Assembly (NCBI GenBank): GCA_903875135.1
Contig: CAIQUZ010000109.1
Location: forward strand, 186,001 to 250,000
DNA: 64,000 bases
Source: an uncultured beta proteobacterium
Lineage (GTDB): Bacteria > Pseudomonadota > Gammaproteobacteria > Burkholderiales > Burkholderiaceae
Direction: 5' to 3'
Part shown: piece by piece, positions 5,364-33,912 of the stretch
How positions within the stretch are numbered: position 1 is the stretch's first letter
Layout: every line of letters begins with the position of its first letter
Notes under the pieces: model-generated
Seen by the model: the letters and a program-made list of their open reading frames with translations, nothing else
The model's database searches: none
What the model was told of the DNA's origin: nothing
Translations under genes and position numbers: made by a program

Positions 5364-6035
5364 TTACTCTTCTACTACCGAAGCTTGCTCTGCTGCAATT
5401 TGACGTAATGAATTGGCAAATACCTCAGCAGATTGACCACCTTGAATCAAATATTTTCCTTCAACAATCACTGACGGAACTGCCGAAATTCCAATCGATC
5501 GGTAATAGGCCAAAGCCTCTCGGACTTCATTCGTATAATTATCAGACTCAATCACTTCTTTTGCCATCTGCTCATTTATTCCGGCACGTTGAACAGCTCT
5601 GAGCAATACTGCCTGATCATCTAAGTCTTCATTCAATGTGAAATATGCTGTCAGTAACTCGCGCTTTAAAAGATATTGGGCACTTAAACTAATTTTTTCC
5701 TGTGCCCAGTGTAACAAACGATGGCACGTAAAAGTATTGTAAATTTTCGGACGTATTGCTTCGTTAAAAGGGAAACCTGCCTCCTTCGCTCGTTGCTGAA
5801 TTTGCGTTTGATTAGCAATGATTTGTTCACGAGTTGAGCCATATTTACCCATTAGGTGTTCAAGCGTATCTTGTCCACCAGGGGGCGTCCCAGGATTGAG
5901 CTCAAATGGATGAAATTGTAACTCTACAGAGATTTGATCTTTTAATTGTTCCACAGCCTGCTCTAAGGAACCAAGGCCAATTGCACACCATGGGCATGCC
6001 ACATCTGAGACGAAATCTATACGGATATTTTTCAT
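5364..6035 (-). CDS. DsbA-family oxidoreductase (FrnE / HCCA isomerase-like)
   Basis: The 223-residue protein starts with a thioredoxin-fold strand (KNIRIDFVSDVACPWC) carrying the CPWC redox pair at Cys14/Cys17. A helical insertion follows, then a cis-Pro loop (GISAVPSVIVEGKYLIQGGQ). This matches the FrnE branch of DsbA-like proteins, which is cytoplasmic. No signal peptide is seen. Known relatives act as thiol-disulfide oxidoreductases in stress defence or as 2-hydroxychromene-2-carboxylate isomerases of aromatic degradation, but the CxxC pair favours the first. It is first gene of a leftward pair with the helicase. Confidence 0.85.
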   Translation of the reverse strand: MKNIRIDFVSDVACPWCAIGLGSLEQAVEQLKDQISVELQFHPFELNPGTPPGGQDTLEHLMGKYGSTREQIIANQTQIQQRAKEAGFPFNEAIRPKIYNTFTCHRLLHWAQEKISLSAQYLLKRELLTAYFTLNEDLDDQAVLLRAVQRAGINEQMAKEVIESDNYTNEVREALAYYRSIGISAVPSVIVEGKYLIQGGQSAEVFANSLRQIAAEQASVVEE

Positions 6036-24603: not shown

Positions 24604-25815
24604 TTAACAAGATTGGATTAAATTTCTCACAACTGGATAGACTTGGGTCTCCCATCGCTTACCATTAAAAACGCCGTAATGCCCGACACCAATTTGTAGA
24701 TGATGAGATTTCATGTAAGGCGGTAGTGATGAACAAAGATCTTGTGCGGCAAGTGTTTGCCCTATTCCACAAATATCATCCCTCTCACCTTCAACAGTTA
24801 ATAAAAAAGTCTTTTTAATTTTTTTAGGATTTACAATTCGTCCTTCAAACGTTAAAGACCCCTTCGCCAAATCACAGTCTTGGAATATCTTTTGAATGGT
24901 TTCAATATAAAATTCTGCAGATAAATCCATAATGGCAAAATATTCTTCATAAAAATCATGAATATTTTGCGCTTTATCATCATCACCAGATACTCGATAT
25001 TCATACAGTTTTTTAAAAGATTCTTGGTGTCTTTTTAGATTCATACTCATAAAGGCATTGAGTTGAACAAAACCTGGGTAGACTTTTCTACCACCACCTT
25101 GATATTGTCTTGGGACAGTATCAATCAATTTTTTCTTGAACCAAGATAGAGGTTTTTGGTTAGCAAGATCATTGACTTTGGTAGGGTTATTTCGAACATC
25201 AATCGGTCCAGCCATTAAAATCAAACTTAATGGCACGCAAGGATGTTGATCTTCTGACATGATTGAAGTTGCGACTAAACAAGCGACGGTTGGCTGACAA
25301 ACTGCCATCAGGTGAGACTTAGGACCTAGCACTTCTAAAAAATCAATCACCTGACGAACATAACTATCAAAATCAAACTTCCCTTTATTTAAAGGAATAT
25401 CTCTGATATTTAACCAATCAGTAATATAAACATCATGATCTTTTAGCAAGGTCTTCACTGTCCCAGATAACAAAGTGGCGAAGTGCCCCGACATTGGAGC
25501 AACTAATAAAACTCTCGGTTGCTGACTGATGCCTACTTTTTTGAAGTGCAGTAAATGACAAAATGATTTTCGAATAATTACTTCTTCAACAACTGAAATT
25601 CGATTACCAAACTCATCAACAATTTCATCAATACCAAACTTAGGCCTAACGTGAGAAAAACCCAATAAAGCTAATTGTTCGTTGACCGCCATAGCATGAC
25701 GATACATAAACCCATTCTGAGGTACTTTTTGATGAAGCCAATAAAATAATGAATCCGCCTTAAAACGTAACGGATTCATTAAATTACTGGCTAGCTGATA
25801 TGCAGAGTACATCAT
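24604..25815 (-). CDS. phaZ: Intracellular polyhydroxyalkanoate depolymerase
   Basis: The 403-residue protein matches the PHB-depolymerase family that mobilises stored granules. It shows RVLLVAPMSGHFATLLSGTVKTLLKDHDVYITDWLN, the lipase-box-like LMAVCQPTVACL with Cys173 as expected nucleophile, a late Asp in EGERDDICGIG and a terminal His in VGHYGVFNG. It has no signal peptide. It is last of a leftward run with cupin and GST genes (12-base gap). It meets the NicC-like gene tail to tail without an evident terminator. Confidence 0.9.
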   Translation of the reverse strand: MMYSAYQLASNLMNPLRFKADSLFYWLHQKVPQNGFMYRHAMAVNEQLALLGFSHVRPKFGIDEIVDEFGNRISVVEEVIIRKSFCHLLHFKKVGISQQPRVLLVAPMSGHFATLLSGTVKTLLKDHDVYITDWLNIRDIPLNKGKFDFDSYVRQVIDFLEVLGPKSHLMAVCQPTVACLVATSIMSEDQHPCVPLSLILMAGPIDVRNNPTKVNDLANQKPLSWFKKKLIDTVPRQYQGGGRKVYPGFVQLNAFMSMNLKRHQESFKKLYEYRVSGDDDKAQNIHDFYEEYFAIMDLSAEFYIETIQKIFQDCDLAKGSLTFEGRIVNPKKIKKTFLLTVEGERDDICGIGQTLAAQDLCSSLPPYMKSHHLQIGVGHYGVFNGKRWETQVYPVVRNLIQSC

Positions 25816-25827
25816 TTGATTAAAAAG

Positions 25828-26262
25828 TCATTTCCAAGGGGTGACTGGTGGAATTTCACATGGGCCAACGGCATCGACTGTTGAAAAATCTGCCGGACCG
25901 ACAATTTCTAAATACTCCATATCTGGAGAATAATCAAATAAATAGTGTACGATTCCTGGTGCCTGATGCACACAATCCCCAGCAGCAACTAGCGTAGGCT
26001 TATCTTCATACATAAATCTCGCCCACCCTTTCATCATAATGACAATCTGAAATTCGGCCACATGGAAGTGCCACCCAGTTCCATTTTCAGGAGGTAAATT
26101 CGCTTTCACCAAATGCGCGATTACTCTTCCTTTCGTAGCCTCAGCAACACCTAAATCACGATACAAAAAGAAATCTCTCAACCCGCCCTTTAAATACTGA
26201 GTATCAGTTGGTTTAATGTGCGAGAAATCGGTTGTAATTTTAAAATCAGTAATAGTATTCAT
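25828..26262 (-). CDS. Cupin-domain protein
   Basis: This 144-residue single-domain cupin has motif 1 GTGWHFHVAEFQIVIMMKGWARF and motif 2 GDCVHQAPGIVHYLFDYSP, which keep the metal-binding His and Glu positions. It could be a small dioxygenase, an isomerase or a ligand sensor. Nothing in the sequence fixes a substrate. A GGAG ribosome site lies 8-9 bases before the ATG. It is co-directional with the GST gene upstream (2-base gap) and phaZ downstream. Confidence 0.8.
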   Translation of the reverse strand: MNTITDFKITTDFSHIKPTDTQYLKGGLRDFFLYRDLGVAEATKGRVIAHLVKANLPPENGTGWHFHVAEFQIVIMMKGWARFMYEDKPTLVAAGDCVHQAPGIVHYLFDYSPDMEYLEIVGPADFSTVDAVGPCEIPPVTPWK

Positions 26263-26264
26263 TA

Positions 26265-26927
26265 TTAAAACTCCACGTCAAGTTCTTCAATTTCATCGGG
26301 TTCTTGAAGGGCGCCCATCACCCATTCCTTCATCTGCGGTAAAGACATGATTTGATCACAATACCGCTGACATAGACCACTAACAGGAACGTTATAGGTC
26401 TGGAATCTAGTCACTACCGGTGCAAACATGGCATCGGCTAATGTCGGACTTTTACCAAATAGGTAAGGCCCCTTATAGGTTGTTAAACACTCTTCCCAGA
26501 TAATCAAAATTCGATCAATATCTAATTGCGCTTTAGACCAAATCTTAAAGTCTTTAAACTTAGCTTTAATATTCATCGGCAATGAACCACGTAAAGAGGC
26601 AAAGCCCGAATGCATTTCACCACATATCGATCGACAATGTGCCCGATGGATAGGATTTGAAGGCAATAATTTTGCATGAGGAACTATTTCATTCAAATAC
26701 TCTCCAATTGCTAGGGTATCCCAAACTTTGGACCCAGAATGCTCTAATCGAGGCACGAGTATAGATGGCGAGAGCAACAATAGTTCAGCACGATTTTGAG
26801 CACTATCTGAATCAATAAAGACTTCTGAAAACGCGATACCTGAAAATTTGACCATGAGCCACCCTCTTAGTGACCATGAAGAATAATTTTTACTACTGAT
26901 TGTCAAAGTTGTTTTTTTAATAGGCAT
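26265..26927 (-). CDS. Glutathione S-transferase family protein
   Basis: The ~220-residue protein has the thioredoxin-like N-terminal domain (TLTISSKNYSSWSLRGWLMVKFSGI, with the SSWSLR active-site region of this subgroup) and a helical C-terminal domain (YLFGKSPTLADAMFAPVVTRFQTY). I place the start at the ATG at 26927, while the open frame reaches a TTG at 26948. Neither has a strong ribosome site. This subgroup is common beside catabolic genes and may conjugate or isomerise electrophilic intermediates. It heads the GST-cupin-phaZ run. Confidence 0.85.
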   Translation of the reverse strand: MPIKKTTLTISSKNYSSWSLRGWLMVKFSGIAFSEVFIDSDSAQNRAELLLLSPSILVPRLEHSGSKVWDTLAIGEYLNEIVPHAKLLPSNPIHRAHCRSICGEMHSGFASLRGSLPMNIKAKFKDFKIWSKAQLDIDRILIIWEECLTTYKGPYLFGKSPTLADAMFAPVVTRFQTYNVPVSGLCQRYCDQIMSLPQMKEWVMGALQEPDEIEELDVEF

Positions 26928-26997
26928 CTTTATAATCAGTTCAGACAAGAGTTAAGATAATTTCAATCTACGCCTATCCAATCCATGATTTTTTTTC

Positions 26998-27018
26998 TTA
27001 AGCACAAGTTATGTGCAA
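26998..27018. promoter_or_regulatory. NtrC-geometry dyad, copy 1
   Basis: GCAC-N7-GTGC occupies 27002-27016, extended by TTAA before and AA after. The arm and spacer pattern matches the NtrC enhancer consensus TGCACC-N5-GGTGCA. It is the first of two such sites in the 198-bp region between the GST and transglutaminase genes. Confidence 0.5.
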
Positions 27019-27064: not shown

Positions 27065-27085
27065 TTAAGCACCATTAATGTGCAA
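27065..27085. promoter_or_regulatory. NtrC-geometry dyad, copy 2
   Basis: A second TTAAGCAC-N7-GTGCAA occurs here (core 27069-27083), 67 bases from the first and about 40 bases before the transglutaminase start. Both copies share the flanking TTAA and AA beyond the dyad, which argues for a real paired operator. Confidence 0.5.
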
Positions 27086-27125: not shown

Positions 27126-30100
27126 ATGACAATTCATATCGCCTTACACCACCAGACTGATTATCAATACTCCAAACTCATTCAAATTGAACCCCAAGTA
27201 GTTCGACTTCGACCAGCGCCTCACTGCAGAAGCAAGATTATTTCTTATTCCTTAAAGATAGAGCCTACTGAACACTTTATTAATTGGCAACAAGATCCTT
27301 TTGCTAACTATCAAGCTAGGCTCGTTTTTCCCAAGAAAACGAAACACTTTACAGTCACGGTAGATTTGATCGTAGAAATGGCCGTCTATAACCCGTTTGA
27401 CTTCTTTTTAGAACCAGAGGCTCAAAATTACCCTTTCAAATACAAAGAAAATTTAAAGAGTGAATTAACGCCTTACCTTGTTCAATCTAAAAGTAACCCG
27501 TTACTTTTAGATTATTTTACAAAAATTGATCGTAGAAAAAAAAGAACGATTGATTTTGTAGTCGATATCAATCAACAATTACAAAAGGATATTCAATATT
27601 TAATTCGTTTGGAGCCAGGGGTTCAGAGCCCAGATGAAACCCTTTTTAAAAAGTGTGGTTCATGTCGAGATAGCGCATGGCTACTAGTGAATCTCTTTCG
27701 TTTATGTGGTCTTGCTGCAAGATTCGTTTCGGGCTATCTCATCCAATTAAAAGCCGATGTTCAAGCTATTGATGGTCCAAGTGGCACTGATAAAGACTTT
27801 ACCGATTTACATGCCTGGTGTGAAGTGTTTCTTCCTGGAGCTGGATGGGTTGGTTTAGACCCTACCTCAGGACTAATTGCTGGAGAAGGACATATACCGC
27901 TAGCGTGCACCCCGGCACCTTCCAACGCAGCACCAATTGAGGGAGTCATTGAAGCATGTGAAGTTCAATTTGAACATCATATGGAAATTCTCCGCATTTA
28001 TGAATCTCCTCGAGTAACAAAACCCTACGATGATGATCAATGGAAAAATATTCTTCAATTAGGGGATCTGGTTGATCAACAACTGATCGACCAAGACGTT
28101 AGACTAACGATGGGTGGTGAACCAACCTTTGTCGCTATGGAGGGCGCAGATGAACCAGAATGGAATACAGCTGCAATGGGTCCTACAAAGCGCGACTATG
28201 CCAGCAAACTGACTCAAAAATTAAGCGCTCAATATTCACATGGCGGAATTCTACATTGTGGCCAAGGAAAATGGTATCCAGGAGAACAACTGCCACGTTG
28301 GGCATTTTCTTTATTTTGGCGGACAGATAAAAAACCAATTTGGCAAGATGCAAAACTATTTTCTCAAGAAGCTGATCAAGCACAATATACCCAACAAGAC
28401 GCCAAGAAACTGATCAAACAACTCTGCCTCAATTTAGGGCTCCCTGGGAATTCCTTTTATGAGGGGAAAGAAGATGCTTGGTATTACCTATGGCGGGAAT
28501 CAAAACTCACAACGGATCAAAATGTTACTAACCTCGATATCGACGATGTCATGGAAAGAAATAGAATTCGCCGTACCTTTAATCAAGGTCTTAAAAGTAG
28601 TGTTGGATACGCTTTGCCGATAACTCCAAATCCTGTGCAATCAAAAAAATCGACGCGATGGTTAACCTGCAAATGGAAAATGCGTGATTCATTTCTATCA
28701 CTAATCCCCGGCGATTCTCCAATGGGCTATCGCCTCCCATTAAGTTCAATCACCTTTCAAAACTCTAAAGCAATAGCTTCCAAAGAGTATTTATCCTCTG
28801 AGATGATTAGAACTACCTTATGTGTTGAAGTTCGAGATTCAAAAAGAACTGGCGGTCCTGAGGCAGAACATCAAGGCGGAGGCAAAAATCAATTTATTTA
28901 TGTTTTTATGCCCCCAATAGATGATTTAGATGATTATCTTCATCTGCTTCAAGTTATCGAGAAAACCGTTGCCACATTAAAGTTAAAAATTGTTTTAGAG
29001 GGTTACCCCCCTCCACGAGATTCAAGACTTCAAGTTCTGCAAGTTACACCTGATCCTGGTGTCATAGAAGTGAATATTCAACCCGCAAATAACTGGCAAG
29101 ATATTGTTGCTCAAACTGAGTTTTTATATCTATGCGCACATGAGACCAAGTTATCTGCGGAAAAATTTATGATGGATGGTAAACATACTGGTACGGGCGG
29201 AGGCAATCACTTTGTTTTAGGTGGAAAAAACGTCGATGACAGTCCATTTTTAAGAAAACCTGAACTACTCGCTAGCCTCCTTCGCTACTGGCATAACCAC
29301 CCTAGCTTAAGCTATTTATTTAGTGGTCTTTTTATTGGGCCAACAAGTCAATCACCACGCATTGATGAAGCTAGAAATGATCAAATTTATGAGTTAGATA
29401 TCGCTTTAAAAGAAATACAGCTTAACCAAAAAAAACATGGGCATAAAATGCCCCCCTGGTTAGTTGATCGAACTCTACGAAATATCTTAATAGATGTAAC
29501 TGGAAATACGCATCGAAGTGAATTTTGTATTGACAAACTCTTTTCACCAGACTCTAGCACAGGAAGACTAGGTCTTCTTGAGCTTCGCTCATTCGAGATG
29601 CCTCCTCACGCGCGGATGAGCCTAACTCAGCAGCTTTTTTTACGAGCATGTGTAGCCAGATTTTGGAAAGACCCCTATCAAGCTTCTTTAACAAGATGGG
29701 GCACAGAACTTCATGATCGATTCTTATTATCAAATGCCATCCGCCAAGATTTTCATGATGTAATTGATGAAATGAACTTAGCGGGTTTTGAGTTTAAGAA
29801 AGATTGGTTTGAGCCTCATTTAGAATTTAGGTTTCCGCTCATAGGAAGTATTGACGTTATGGGAGTTCATTTAAGTCTTCGTAATGCTCTTGAACCATGG
29901 CACGTAATGGGTGAAGAAACCACGGGTGGTGGCACTGCACGCTATGTAGATTCATCACTTGAAAGAATTGAACTTCTTGTCACAGGAATCAACCCTCATA
30001 GACACGTGATTAGTTGTAACAAAATTGCCGTTCCACTGCAAACCACAGGAAAAGTTGGAGAATTTGTCGCAGGCATTCGGTTTAAGGCATGGAATCCACC

Positions 30101-30380
30101 ATCCAGCCTGCACCCAACCATCGGGGTTCACTCACCTCTTACTTTTGATATTGTTGACACATGGAATCGTCGATCTTTAGGCGGTTGCCAATACCATGTT
30201 ATTCATCCAGGAGGTGTTAATTACAATCACTTACCGATTAATTCGTATGAAGCAGAAAGTCGTAGATTATCCAGATTTTTTGCCATGGGTCACACCACAG
30301 GCCAACTGAAAAAACTCCCTTCCACCTTTGACCTACCTCAAAGCAGGGAATTTCCATATACTTTGGACTTAAGAAGATAA
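27126..30380 (+). CDS. Transglutaminase-like protein with DUF2126 domain
   Basis: This large 1084-residue protein begins with a transglutaminase N-terminal beta domain. The papain-like core (~residues 170-260) has the catalytic Cys in [17 protein letters not shown], the His in [20 protein letters not shown] and the Asp after it. The remaining ~800 residues match DUF2126 ([59 protein letters not shown]-like segments). This protein type is encoded with circularly permuted ATP-grasp/alpha-E proteins in a conserved operon thought to make or cleave peptide-like modifications. The true substrate is unknown. It has no signal peptide, so it is probably cytosolic. Confidence 0.88.
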   Translation: [1084 protein letters not shown]

Positions 30381-30392
30381 AATAATGATATT

Positions 30393-32987
30393 GTGAAATT
30401 TTTAAAACCAATCTATGAGACGGAAGATCCTGTCTCTCCTATACAACTGGCGGAACTTCTCATACAGACAGGTACTGAGAATCATTTTGATGAATTAAAA
30501 AACCGTACCTCCCCCTCCCCCAAGAAGTCATATCTGACACCAAATTGGGAAACATTTTTTACGACCATAGGCACTCGAGGAATCGAGAATCTCAATTTAA
30601 AAGAACAAGATTTATTGAATGCTGTGAAAGAAAACGGCATCACGTATAACGTTTATGCAGATGAAAACGGGCCTCAAAGACCTTGGTCTCTGGATATTTT
30701 TCCACTCATCATCGATCCTTTGAATTGGCAAAAAATTGCTTCTGGAGTATCACAAAGAGCGCAATTACTAGAGCTAATCATGAAGGATATCTATGGCCCA
30801 CAAAATCTCATTAGAGAGGGACTAATACCTCCCGCATTAGTCCATGGTCATCCAGGTTATTTAAGAATGATGCATGGCGCCAATTTATTAGGTCACAAAC
30901 ATCTTCATATTATGGCGTTTGACTTAGCGCGAAACGCTACTGGTGAATGGAGTGTCATTTCCCAAAGAACCCAAGCACCTTCGGGTCTTGGTTATCTTTT
31001 AGAAAATCGGAATCTCGTTTCTCAACAATTTCCAATTGCTTTTGAAAAAATGAACATCGAGCCTCTTGCCAGCACCTATCGTGAATTGATCGACGCGCTC
31101 AAACTATCTAGTCCAGCAGGATTTAATTCAAACATTGTTCTGCTTACCCCAGGTCCATATAACGAAACGTATTTTGAACATGCTTATCTAGCCCGTTTTT
31201 TAGGACTCACTCTTGTGCAAGGTTCAGATTTAACGGTTCGCAACCAATGTGTCTATCTCAGAACACTTGGAGGTCTAGAACAAGTACACATTATTATAAA
31301 ACGCCTTGACGATCTCTTTTTAGACCCGCTCGAACTTTTACCCGACTCAACCCTTGGCATTCCAGGCATTTTACAAGCCATTCGCTCAGGCAATGTCTTG
31401 ATTGCGAATGCCCCTGGATCCGCCTTTTTAGAGTCTCCAGCTTTACTGGGGTTCTTGCCAGGTATTAGCGAAAAACTACTAGGTCAGCATCTTGAATTGC
31501 CTGCGATGGATACATGGTGGTGTGGCGAATCTGCAGCCTTTGACTCTGCGATGTCGAATATTCATAACACGGCAATTAAACCAACTTACCCAAACAGTGA
31601 AGGTCATCAAAGTTTCCCCGCAATATTAACAAAAGATTTAAGCCCACAAGAACTAGAAAAATGGATCTCCAAAATTAAGGAGCAACCTGATGAGTACACT
31701 GTTCAAACTTATCTGCCATTAGCACAAATGCCATCATGGGAGAATTCGCAAATCAAGCAAAAGTCCTATGTATTAAGGGTATTTGCATTGAGTAATGGCG
31801 CCAGTTCTTGGAGTATTCTTTCTGGGGGGCTTGTTCGAATTGCCACAAAAACTGATGGAATTGCATCAATGCAACGTGGTGGAAGTAGTGCTGATGCATG
31901 GGTTCAAACTAATACTCAGATACAAAACCCCAACTTAGCGAATCTCTATTCAATTGAAGCAAATGCGCAGAAAAAAAGAGTCGTGACTAGCCGAGCCGCT
32001 GAAAATTTATTTTGGTTTGGACGCTACTCAGAGAGAAGTGAAAATACGATTCGTCTAGCGCGACTGTATTTAAAAAGCCTCAACAATGAATATCATGATG
32101 AAAGCTCTATTTGGTTATTATTAGGCAGTCTTTGTAAAACTCAGTCGTTAGTCCCACAAGATATTGATCCCATATACAACCTTAAAGGGGTTCGTAATCG
32201 TTTATTTGAAAAAACCCTTATCGAAACATTACATGACCAATCCTCCCTACCAAGTGTTGGCTTTAACTTATTAGCTATGCAACAAGCAGCATCCTCAGTA
32301 AGAGAACGATTAGCACCTGAACAGTGGGCGATTATTCATGAATGTATCGATCAGTTTAGAAAAGATCTCAATTACACAAAGATTAATCAAGAATACTCCA
32401 CCAATCAAGCGATGGAAGCATTAGGACAGGCCAGTAAATCATTAGCTGCCATCACCGGTGGTCAAACTGATAGGATGACGAGAGATGATGGTTGGCAATT
32501 ACTCAGCATTGGGCGATACCTTGAACGATTAATGTTCCTTTGTGAGGTCTTTTTAGAAGCTATTTCGCTAGATCTCTTTAATGGACTTCCACATGATGTA
32601 TCTGGGTTCGATGGACTTTTGTACTTATTCGATAGCACCATTACTTACCATAGCCAACATCAACAAAATAGAAGTCTTAACTCATTTATCGATCTTGTCA
32701 TTACTGATAACGAAAATCCACGTTCTTTTGCCTGGATTATTCATCACTTAGATAATAGAATCAAAAAATTGAATCGAATTAACCCCAACCAACCCATTCA
32801 ATTTGACCATCCATTTATTAACGCGGTGATGCCTTCGATAGAAACATTATGTGAGGTCAATCAAGAAAATCAATTATTGAATTTAACTCAATATATACGC
32901 AGCATTCAACAATCTATTTTTTCTGTAGCTGATGATATCAATGCTAATTACTTCAGCCACATCTATAAATCCAACTACCGCATTTAA
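30393..32987 (+). CDS. Circularly permuted ATP-grasp type 2 protein fused to alpha-E domain
   Basis: The N-terminal ~480 residues resemble circularly permuted ATP-grasp amidoligases (YADENGPQRPWSLDIFPLIIDPLNWQKIASGVSQRAQLLELIMKDIYGPQ, GSDLTVRNQCVYLRTLGGLEQVHIIIKRLDD). From about residue 530 (SRAAENLFWFGRYSERSENTIRLARLYL) the helical alpha-E domain runs to the end. In many genomes these two domains are separate genes; here they are one 864-residue chain. Family knowledge predicts ATP-dependent peptide-bond formation. The start is a GTG at 30393, 12 bases after the transglutaminase stop, with no strong ribosome site, so translational coupling is likely. Confidence 0.85.
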   Translation: MKFLKPIYETEDPVSPIQLAELLIQTGTENHFDELKNRTSPSPKKSYLTPNWETFFTTIGTRGIENLNLKEQDLLNAVKENGITYNVYADENGPQRPWSLDIFPLIIDPLNWQKIASGVSQRAQLLELIMKDIYGPQNLIREGLIPPALVHGHPGYLRMMHGANLLGHKHLHIMAFDLARNATGEWSVISQRTQAPSGLGYLLENRNLVSQQFPIAFEKMNIEPLASTYRELIDALKLSSPAGFNSNIVLLTPGPYNETYFEHAYLARFLGLTLVQGSDLTVRNQCVYLRTLGGLEQVHIIIKRLDDLFLDPLELLPDSTLGIPGILQAIRSGNVLIANAPGSAFLESPALLGFLPGISEKLLGQHLELPAMDTWWCGESAAFDSAMSNIHNTAIKPTYPNSEGHQSFPAILTKDLSPQELEKWISKIKEQPDEYTVQTYLPLAQMPSWENSQIKQKSYVLRVFALSNGASSWSILSGGLVRIATKTDGIASMQRGGSSADAWVQTNTQIQNPNLANLYSIEANAQKKRVVTSRAAENLFWFGRYSERSENTIRLARLYLKSLNNEYHDESSIWLLLGSLCKTQSLVPQDIDPIYNLKGVRNRLFEKTLIETLHDQSSLPSVGFNLLAMQQAASSVRERLAPEQWAIIHECIDQFRKDLNYTKINQEYSTNQAMEALGQASKSLAAITGGQTDRMTRDDGWQLLSIGRYLERLMFLCEVFLEAISLDLFNGLPHDVSGFDGLLYLFDSTITYHSQHQQNRSLNSFIDLVITDNENPRSFAWIIHHLDNRIKKLNRINPNQPIQFDHPFINAVMPSIETLCEVNQENQLLNLTQYIRSIQQSIFSVADDINANYFSHIYKSNYRI

Positions 32988-32988
32988 T

Positions 32989-33912
32989 ATGCAATTAGAA
33001 ATTCTTCATGACTCAACCTATACCTACGCAGGACAAGTAGAAACTGTTCGTCACCAAGCTCATCTAAAGCCTCGCTCGAATATGTATCAAAATATTTTGT
33101 TCTCTCATATTCAAATTAAACCAACCCCAGATGTATATTATGAAACTCAAGATATTTTTGGCAATTACTCTTCCTATTTTTCTATTCAAGAAAAACACCC
33201 TACTCTCGTAATTCAATCTCGCAGTCAAGTTGAAACTTTTTCAAACGCGAATCATCAACAATTAGAACAAATACCGAGCTGGGAAAATGTTAGGGAATAT
33301 TTTAAATATTCAACACTCCAAAAATGGGATAGCGCATCTGAGTTTTTATTTAACTCTCCATTGATTCAGTATGATGCGCAGTATGTTCAGTTTGCGAAAG
33401 AAGCCTTCTTTCCTCAGCGTAATATTTTAGATGGCGCAATAGCACTGATGGAGCAGATCTATCATCAATTTGAGTATCAAACAAAATCAACCAATATCAA
33501 TACTCCGACTCGCGAAGCTTTTGATCAAAAAAAAGGTGTTTGCCAAGATTTCGCTCATATATTCATTAGCTGTATGCGCAGTATTGGCCTACCTGCAAAA
33601 TATATCAGTGGCTATCTTTTAACTACCCCTCCACCAGGTAAAGTTAGGCTCATCGGCGCTGACGCATCCCACGCTTGGACTTCCGTTTATATTCCTAGTT
33701 TTGATCTTTACAATAAGTTGTCCTCTGGAGTTTGGTGCGATTTTGACCCAACAAATAATCGTTGGGGAATCGGTAGCCCTGGTGAGGATTATGTATTTTT
33801 AGCGCAAGGCAGAGACTATGCTGACGTCTCCCCTATTCGGGGCGTGATTAAAGGAGGTGCTAATCACGATATAGAAGTTTCAGTAACGGTTCGGCCAATT
33901 CAAACAGATTGA
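32989..33912 (+). CDS. Transglutaminase family protein (second in operon)
   Basis: The 307-residue protein starts with MQLEILHDSTYTYAG, the standard N-terminal beta domain of this family. The catalytic core has Cys in KKGVCQDFAHIFISCMRSIGLPAKYISGYL, His in DASHAWTSVYIP and Asp in WCDFDPTNNRWG. The ATG at 32989 follows the ATP-grasp stop by one base, and the frame extending to 32932 is not needed. It completes a transglutaminase / ATP-grasp-alpha-E / transglutaminase set. No Anbu-type peptidase, often encoded with such sets, is present in the window. Confidence 0.87.
   Translation: MQLEILHDSTYTYAGQVETVRHQAHLKPRSNMYQNILFSHIQIKPTPDVYYETQDIFGNYSSYFSIQEKHPTLVIQSRSQVETFSNANHQQLEQIPSWENVREYFKYSTLQKWDSASEFLFNSPLIQYDAQYVQFAKEAFFPQRNILDGAIALMEQIYHQFEYQTKSTNINTPTREAFDQKKGVCQDFAHIFISCMRSIGLPAKYISGYLLTTPPPGKVRLIGADASHAWTSVYIPSFDLYNKLSSGVWCDFDPTNNRWGIGSPGEDYVFLAQGRDYADVSPIRGVIKGGANHDIEVSVTVRPIQTD

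Follow-up and report, generated by a model that had tools for sequence, protein, structure and literature searches.

A DUF2126 operon with a fused, probably non-ligase ATP-grasp protein and NtrC-like boxes in common with an Anbu operon in a Polynucleobacter-like bacterium

The DNA analysed here (the window, 64,000 nt) comes from a Polynucleobacter-like bacterium and carries an operon for a widespread set of bond-making and bond-cutting enzymes. The explanation that we consider the best (probability about 0.55) is that this bacterium has two nitrogen-linked gene sets serving one nitrogen-related product, and that in the window set DUF2126 would be the ligase and a fused ATP-grasp/alpha-E protein its non-ligase partner. 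Nitrogen shortage would switch on both sets through NtrC-like boxes. One set provides the Anbu protein along with an alpha-E protein, a transglutaminase and an ATP-grasp protein whose motifs are intact. In the window set DUF2126 would act as the ATP-using ligase and the fused protein, whose alpha-E domain would be functional, as a scaffold or a partner for substrate binding, while the Cys-His-Asp transglutaminase domains may cut or rearrange amide bonds of the product. Both sets would act on the same product, a peptide or a peptide-modified compound, and Anbu would come from the other locus.

The operon of the window and the Anbu operon

The operon consists of three genes on the + strand, all with frames open throughout. 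The features of the region are:

24604..26948, - strand: PHB depolymerase, cupin and GST genes, divergent, with a control region common with the operon
27002..27016: NtrC-like palindrome 1 (GCAC-N7-GTGC), 109 bases ahead of the DUF2126 start
27069..27083: NtrC-like palindrome 2, 42 bases ahead of the DUF2126 start; the site of relatives lies 43-45 bases before theirs
27126..30380, + strand: transglutaminase-DUF2126 protein, 1084 aa; residues 6-246 contain the transglutaminase domains, followed by a putative amidoligase domain
30393..32987, + strand: fused circularly permuted ATP-grasp and alpha-E protein, 864 aa
30702..31844, + strand: ATP-grasp domain, residues 104-484; predicted degenerate, with S190-Q-R192 instead of E-D-N and no Gly-rich loop after K396
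31986..32954, + strand: alpha-E domain, residues 532-854; conserved motifs E547-R548 and E711-R712
32989..33912, + strand: second transglutaminase-like protein, about 307 aa, with visible Cys-His-Asp motifs

Profile searches identified Bact_transglu_N (4e-23), Transglut_core (1e-17) and DUF2126 (PF09899, 1218.6 bits against a cut-off of 27 for the curated model) in the first gene, CP_ATPgrasp_2 (8e-131) together with Alpha-E (1e-52) in the single protein of the second, and Bact_transglu_N (2.9e-20) and Transglut_core (1.6e-18) in the third. The domain profiles and the gene order bear out the arrangement proposed in the earlier note, i.e., an ATP-grasp/alpha-E fusion flanked by two different transglutaminase proteins. 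The further statement that all catalytic Cys, His and Asp residues are visible is true of the transglutaminase motifs, found by inspection in both proteins (C180, H229 and D245 of the DUF2126 protein are each conserved in at least 70 of 71 sequences), but the ATP-grasp motifs are missing. For the third gene, 32989 is a more likely start than 32932: it is one base past the stop of the second gene, and a start at 32932 would place the beginning of the transglutaminase N-domain only at residue 22.

A genome search for Anbu, which the earlier note had suggested, was positive. The sole match to the Anbu profile in the genome (G000:C109:95839-96567, E 3.9e-126) belongs to an ATP-grasp/alpha-E/transglutaminase/Anbu operon on the same contig (about 92.6-96.6 kb), about 116 kb away from the window operon, and the standalone ATP-grasp of this second operon has its motifs intact. 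A search with Pfam PF00227 missed the gene, a false negative, and it was recovered from the neighbourhood of the second alpha-E match and with the Anbu profile. The description of the system as being without Anbu is thus correct for the operon and for the window, where the profile search found none, but not for the genome. DUF2126 proteins are present in 92 of 299 sampled Pseudomonadota genomes, yet no paper naming the family was found in the literature searched. Anbu was found in 58 of these 92 genomes compared to 57 of the other 207, with a Fisher p of 9e-9 that is overstated because the species are related; 34 of the 92 lack Anbu, which is therefore not essential to the set. Within the genus, the fused gene and Anbu are not significantly associated (p 0.07).

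NtrC-like boxes and nitrogen

An NtrC-like control region common to the window operon and the Anbu operon is reported here as new. The 2.7 Mb genome has 12 exact palindromes, of which two are upstream of the window operon and one upstream of the Anbu operon; seven are within reading frames, one, near a contig edge, is beside a gene that neighbours glnA in relatives, and one precedes a gene read by eye as being of the sulfate-permease type. The boxes are conserved in relatives. In two of these (G002 and G033) the examination covered 24 of 36 sites, namely 16 in positional order and 8 picked by hand. Fourteen are within reading frames. The 10 that are intergenic lie before glnA (four), amtB (one), PII (one), the Anbu operon (two) and the DUF2126 operon (two). 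Of the 16 that were not hand-picked, 12 are in reading frames and the other four lie ahead of PII, DUF2126, the Anbu operon and glnA. A mechanically called frame on the opposite strand overlaps the amtB site and was taken as spurious.

Palindromes are in little to moderate excess over the reversed control, with 12 against 10 in the own genome and 19 against 11 and 17 against 8 in two relatives. For the window alone, at least two exact sites occurred in 10 of 100 shuffles, and the TGCAC form with one mismatch showed no enrichment. A sequence scan for sigma-54 -24/-12 promoters gave no consistent site at either operon, and even the best candidates at glnA were not significant relative to shuffles (p about 0.1); the box is also close to the start codon. 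From the sequence of the boxes we infer that NtrC would bind to them; the two operons are probably induced together by nitrogen shortage.

This agrees with the NtrC dependence published for Burkholderia. In the table values of the report on B. cenocepacia, genes I35_5080-83 (DUF404/407, DUF403, transglutaminase and large transglutaminase) are at -6.0 to -9.4 in an ntrC mutant, and a PHB depolymerase gene and a GST gene are also listed as NtrC-dependent (PMC5491218). Published data for Pseudomonas putida show PP_2685 and PP_2688 to be higher on nitrate than on ammonium (PMC8050072) and PP_2686-2688 to rise under nitrogen limitation, with the Anbu gene PP_2685 barely up (1.12, 4.81 and 1.45 in three strains) (PMC7801951).

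The sharing of NtrC-like boxes with glnA, amtB and PII within the genus, as well as this published response to nitrogen limitation, would also be expected of a nitrogen-scavenging hydrolase module, in which the transglutaminase-like enzymes and Anbu free nitrogen held in proteins or amides, without synthesis of a dedicated peptide. We regard this as possible but rather doubtful, as it leaves conserved ligase-type domains, i.e., the intact ATP-grasp of the Anbu operon and DUF2126, without a role, and recombinant Anbu is described in one study as having neither peptidase nor amidase activity (PMC6376114). The shared boxes suggest nitrogen limitation as the growth condition for a product search, and the genus has cultured strains.

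The fused ATP-grasp/alpha-E protein and its DUF2126 partner

The earlier note had named a loss of key ATP-grasp residues as a refutation of its proposal; at the sequence level such a loss is seen, in that the E-x-N motif and the Gly-rich loop are absent. We take these motifs to be the metal/ATP site from the ligands D318, E330 and N332 of E. coli GspS; the residue types at these positions were confirmed, and a profile alignment is in the right register with a weak score (E 0.13). All 22 standalone ATP-grasps have both E-x-N (E-D-N) and the loop (GG-Y-G). Among 292 fused proteins, the Asn is found in none, the Glu in two, both in none, and GGYG or GGFG in none. The 292 are not independent, being 240 database matches (the best 120 of each of two queries, among them the window protein again) and 52 genome sequences; truncated or short sequences (L024 and L025 of the fused type; L039, L043, L044 and L084 of the standalone type) were excluded from the counts. 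Because of this loss, ligase activity of the fused ATP-grasp is improbable throughout the fused family. The alpha-E motif residues are in contrast kept in both kinds, e.g., R548 and R712 each in 26 of 26 and 50 of 50 sequences, two over-long fused frames being excluded. DUF2126 is likewise conserved. The tree splits cleanly into fused and standalone proteins, with a support of 0.37 for all columns and 0.92 without the motif columns.

An 88-row alignment shows that the fused family has invariant and specific residues of its own (E258, E347 and W375-W376-C377-G378). At the position of the loop lysine, 237 of the 240 database matches have K, as do 21 of the 52 genome sequences, in which the loop is poorly aligned. 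It is conceivable that such residues, e.g., the invariant Glu or the WWCG, bind Mg-ATP and that the fused protein is an active ligase; with both site motifs gone from all 292 proteins this is unlikely, even though the role of the site comes from the GspS ligands and a weakly scoring alignment. If the fused ATP-grasp is dead, DUF2126 and the standalone proteins are the better targets for ligase assays.

The Pfam name of DUF2126 is 'Putative amidoligase enzyme'. A glutamine-synthetase-like ligase reading is without statistical support, since comparisons with GCS2 profiles (E 0.04-0.7, the best match spanning only 39 columns) and with other profiles (E 0.27-0.98) were not significant; Amidoligase_2, found in 3 of 80 genomes of the sample, was too rare for a good profile. 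The absence of DUF2126 profile positions 271-319 from the window protein was considered as damage and rejected, as it falls in a variable stretch.

The three-gene set was found in 36 of 40 loci examined and the PHB depolymerase/cupin/GST trio adjoins the operon in 18 of 25. The set is patchy in the genus, with DUF2126 in 13 of 37 sampled genomes (own included), a broken set in one relative (G023) and, in another (L046), no DUF2126 although the two remaining genes and the boxes are retained, but a decaying leftover in this lineage is very improbable given the open frames, the conserved boxes and the dN/dS values, 0.09 for DUF2126 and, in two comparisons with high dS (1.1 and 2.7), about 0.055 for the fused gene. 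The reading with DUF2126 as ligase and a non-ligase partner can tentatively be taken further: the fused proteins might be one ancient pseudo-ligase family kept as the DUF2126 partner subunit, and nitrogen-starved cells might run two linked amide-forming machines, ATP-grasp with Anbu and DUF2126, on a nitrogen-related product.

Comparison with known systems

The window operon brings ATP-grasp, alpha-E and transglutaminase genes together, and in this respect, as in the Pfam name of DUF2126, it fits where the earlier note placed it, among the amidoligase/transglutaminase sets of the survey by Aravind and colleagues, so far as papers citing that survey describe them; the ATP-grasp residues do not fit, and the genome is not free of Anbu. 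The Anbu operon reported previously (PMC6376114; PMC5666114) consists of ATP-grasp, alpha-E, transglutaminase and Anbu. The first three families are common to the window set, which differs in having DUF2126, the ATP-grasp/alpha-E fusion, no Anbu and an ATP-grasp without its site motifs. In this genus the Anbu operon has the same kind of upstream box.

The rlo operon of P. aeruginosa likewise combines an ATP-grasp and a transglutaminase-type protein; its transglutaminase, RloB, is inactive and located in the membrane, RloA is a retropepsin, and neither DUF2126 nor alpha-E is named in the available text (PMC12239564). A solved structure, PDB 3n6x ('Putative glutathionylspermidine synthase'), matches the window ATP-grasp domain (E 1.4e-73), but it is of the standalone type and keeps the EDN and GGYG that the fused domain lacks.

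The three-gene arrangement is common and also occurs in another phylum. The plasmid operon ACIX9_RS19305-19295 of Granulicella tundricola (Acidobacteriota) shares the three genes, their order and the motif losses, and has no exact box upstream in the stretch examined. The B. cenocepacia cluster I35_5080-83 includes, as listed in its report, a large transglutaminase protein as in the window set (PMC5491218). In a B. cenocepacia sequence record, ATP-grasp, alpha-E, transglutaminase, DUF2126, the fused protein and the second transglutaminase are consecutive, and the first of them is preceded by a GCAC-N7-GTGC box; judged by gene order, this record would correspond to that cluster. The six genes are thus at one locus in B. 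cenocepacia, whereas in the window genome they are split over two.

Distribution of the operon and a second, Anbu-containing set

The window occupies G000:C109:186001-250000 in a genome of 2.70 Mb (129 contigs, completeness 92.8%) whose close relatives are labelled Polynucleobacter, Burkholderiaceae or beta-proteobacterial MAGs. The window operon is real and belongs to a known, biochemically unsolved group; the domains earlier claimed for its three genes were all found by Pfam, and gene 3 most likely starts at 32989. The earlier note had also described the system as one without Anbu. A Pfam proteasome profile search of the genome gave no match, but the neighbourhood of a second alpha-E match proved to be an operon of four genes (fetched locus L023), about 116 kb from the window operon in the same contig. 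The genes of the two sets are:

window:27126-30380, +, transglutaminase-DUF2126
window:30393-32987, +, fused ATP-grasp/alpha-E
window:32989-33912, +, second transglutaminase
L023:6602-8014, standalone ATP-grasp
L023:7996-9006, alpha-E
L023:9011-9808, transglutaminase
L023:9840-10649, protein starting MTYCV (Anbu)

The MTYCV protein was matched by no Pfam model at E 0.001 and resembles solved Anbu chains (E 2.9e-78 to 5loy, 'Designed Anbu Protein'; E 2.7e-66 to 5nyf). With an Anbu profile, Anbu was found in 74/101 genomes of a genus sample and 115/299 of a phylum sample, own genome counted in both. DUF2126 genomes without Anbu do exist, because 34 of the 92 in the phylum sample lack it (58 have it), but the present genome is not one of them. 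In one relative (G377:C1:1112597-1138733) the Anbu gene and the CP ATP-grasp each occur twice, about 22 kb apart.

DUF2126 was found in 22/61 genomes of a relatives sample (13/37 genus members, own counted) and 92/299 of the phylum sample. Forty loci of the latter, hand-chosen for spread over genera, were fetched, and in 36 of them the fetched stretch held all three members of the set, DUF2126, fused protein and second transglutaminase (exceptions L080, L088, L096 and L113). A Granulicella (Acidobacteriota) plasmid has the same three genes in the same order. The DUF2126 protein has 240 positions that at least 70 of 71 sequences keep; the Cys, His and Asp of the transglutaminase are among them, as are many charged residues. 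Pfam labels DUF2126 a putative amidoligase, and profile comparison did not confirm a fold.

Other features of the region were also seen. An alpha/beta hydrolase gene, its start signal-peptide-like by eye, follows the operon (window:33965-34939); among the genus loci examined the MAG relative L046 alone shares this placement, and the contig of the near-identical relative L045 stops short of it. DNA identity between window:23600-33200 and L045 is 99-100% until about 27.4 kb, with a dip (87%) near 27.8 kb and values of about 79-86% beyond 30.2 kb (dS of the fused gene 1.15), reflecting either allele exchange or a chimeric contig. At window:16439-20893 enoyl-CoA hydratase-type, weakly PaaA/PaaC-type and ferredoxin-reductase-type proteins stand in series and resemble the benzoyl-CoA oxidation (box) genes.

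ATP-grasp motifs of fused and standalone proteins

The first of two points worth following is the ATP-grasp, which by its motifs is degenerate in every fused relative examined. Standalone ATP-grasps carry V-L-E-D-N-x-R-x-P-S-G and a loop lysine followed by G-G-Y-G, whereas in the window protein V-I-S-Q-R-T-Q-A-P-S-G and I-K-P-T-Y-P stand at these places, the Gly-rich loop being absent. In a joint alignment E, D, N, lysine and GG-Y-G were all present in 22/22 standalones, whereas the N was found in 0/292 and the E in 2/292 fused proteins, these being 52 from genomes (window counted) and 240 database matches, the best 120 for each of two queries, with the window protein among them again. Independently of the alignment, GGYG or GGFG was found in 22/22 standalones versus 0/292 fused proteins, as was E-[DE]-N-x-x-x-P-[SA]-G. 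The same losses are seen in fused proteins of Granulicella, Azospirillum, Caballeronia and Burkholderia. Standalone D144, E157 and N159 align, at a weak profile score (E 0.13), with E. coli GspS D318, E330 and N332, which we take to be metal ligands. The fused gene does not appear to be decaying: dN/dS is about 0.055, many residues of its product are invariant in the family and the alpha-E motifs are retained. In a tree, fused and standalone proteins split cleanly, with support of 0.37 from all columns and 0.92 without the motif columns.

A putative NtrC-like control region at both operons

The second point is an NtrC-like control region that the window and Anbu operons share. Two exact GCAC-N7-GTGC palindromes stand between DUF2126 and the divergent GST gene, in a gap of 177 bases. 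The genome has 12 in all (10 for the reversed control), one of them upstream of the Anbu operon, 63 bases from the start of its ATP-grasp gene. Upstream of DUF2126, at 33 loci in or near the genus with a placeable start (several being the same genome fetched twice), the site was exact in 27, had one mismatch in five and was absent in L028; it lies 43-45 bases from the start except in the window and L045, where two sites exist and the more distant one, at 109 bases, is the one given. L025, L061 and L067, for which no start was obtained, fall outside this count, and L026 and L032, outside the genus, have no site upstream of DUF2126. Among 20 further genus loci of the Anbu operon the site is exact in 16 (63-66 bases), has one mismatch in L154 (64 bases) and L173 (63 bases), and has two, at a different place, in L172; at L171 the proper start was not found. 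The Anbu operons of L023 and L074 have exact sites too. A sigma-54 promoter scan at both operons found no consistent -24/-12 site.

In two complete relatives, G002 and G033, 24 of 36 sites were examined (16 in order of position, eight hand-picked); 14 lie within reading frames and 10 are intergenic, preceding glnA (two per genome), amtB (G002), PII (G033) and, in both genomes, the Anbu and DUF2126 operons. The assignments as glutamine synthetase, ammonium transporter and P-II are backed by Pfam.

Single sites were also noted elsewhere. In the own genome a palindrome (L143:1501-1515) stands 70 bases before a gene of sulfate-permease type, judged by eye. In L025 (G023) DUF2126 is split into three frames and the other two frames are shortened (L025:5502-11997), with an exact site kept at 5443-5457. 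L046 has no DUF2126 gene, by real deletion or assembly fault; two sites and a short remnant (L046:9660-10010), by eye like the DUF2126 C-terminus, stand directly 5' of the fused gene.

Comparison with published nitrogen control

Literature searches found no paper on 'DUF2126' and none joining NtrC with Anbu; ATP-grasp with pseudoenzyme gave a tubulin-ligase-like protein only, and Polynucleobacter with NtrC gave Zwartia work only. One study of the Anbu system reports no peptidase activity of Anbu and release of phosphate from ATP by the ATP-grasp of that operon (PMC6376114); further background is in PMC5666114, PMC12239564, PMC12096838, PMC3597751, PMC8407117 and PMC10274813. In Pseudomonas putida, expression of PP_2685 and PP_2688 is higher on nitrate than on ammonium (log2 4.44 and 3.99; PMC8050072), and under nitrogen limitation PP_2686-2688 are up 11- to 37-fold, ascribed to NtrB/NtrC, with values of 1.12, 4.81 and 1.45 for the Anbu gene PP_2685 (PMC7801951). 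In an ntrC mutant of Burkholderia cenocepacia H111, I35_5080 (DUF404/407) changes by -8.2, 5081 (DUF403) by -9.4, 5082 (transglutaminase) by -9.4 and 5083 (large transglutaminase) by -6.0, and a PHB depolymerase by -6.6 and a GST by -5.3 (PMC5491218). For relatives, the literature thus already places such clusters under nitrogen control; the sites at both sets in Polynucleobacter come from the present analysis. The NtrC-dependent PHB depolymerase and GST of B. cenocepacia (PMC5491218) are of the same kinds as genes that stand divergent beside the window operon.
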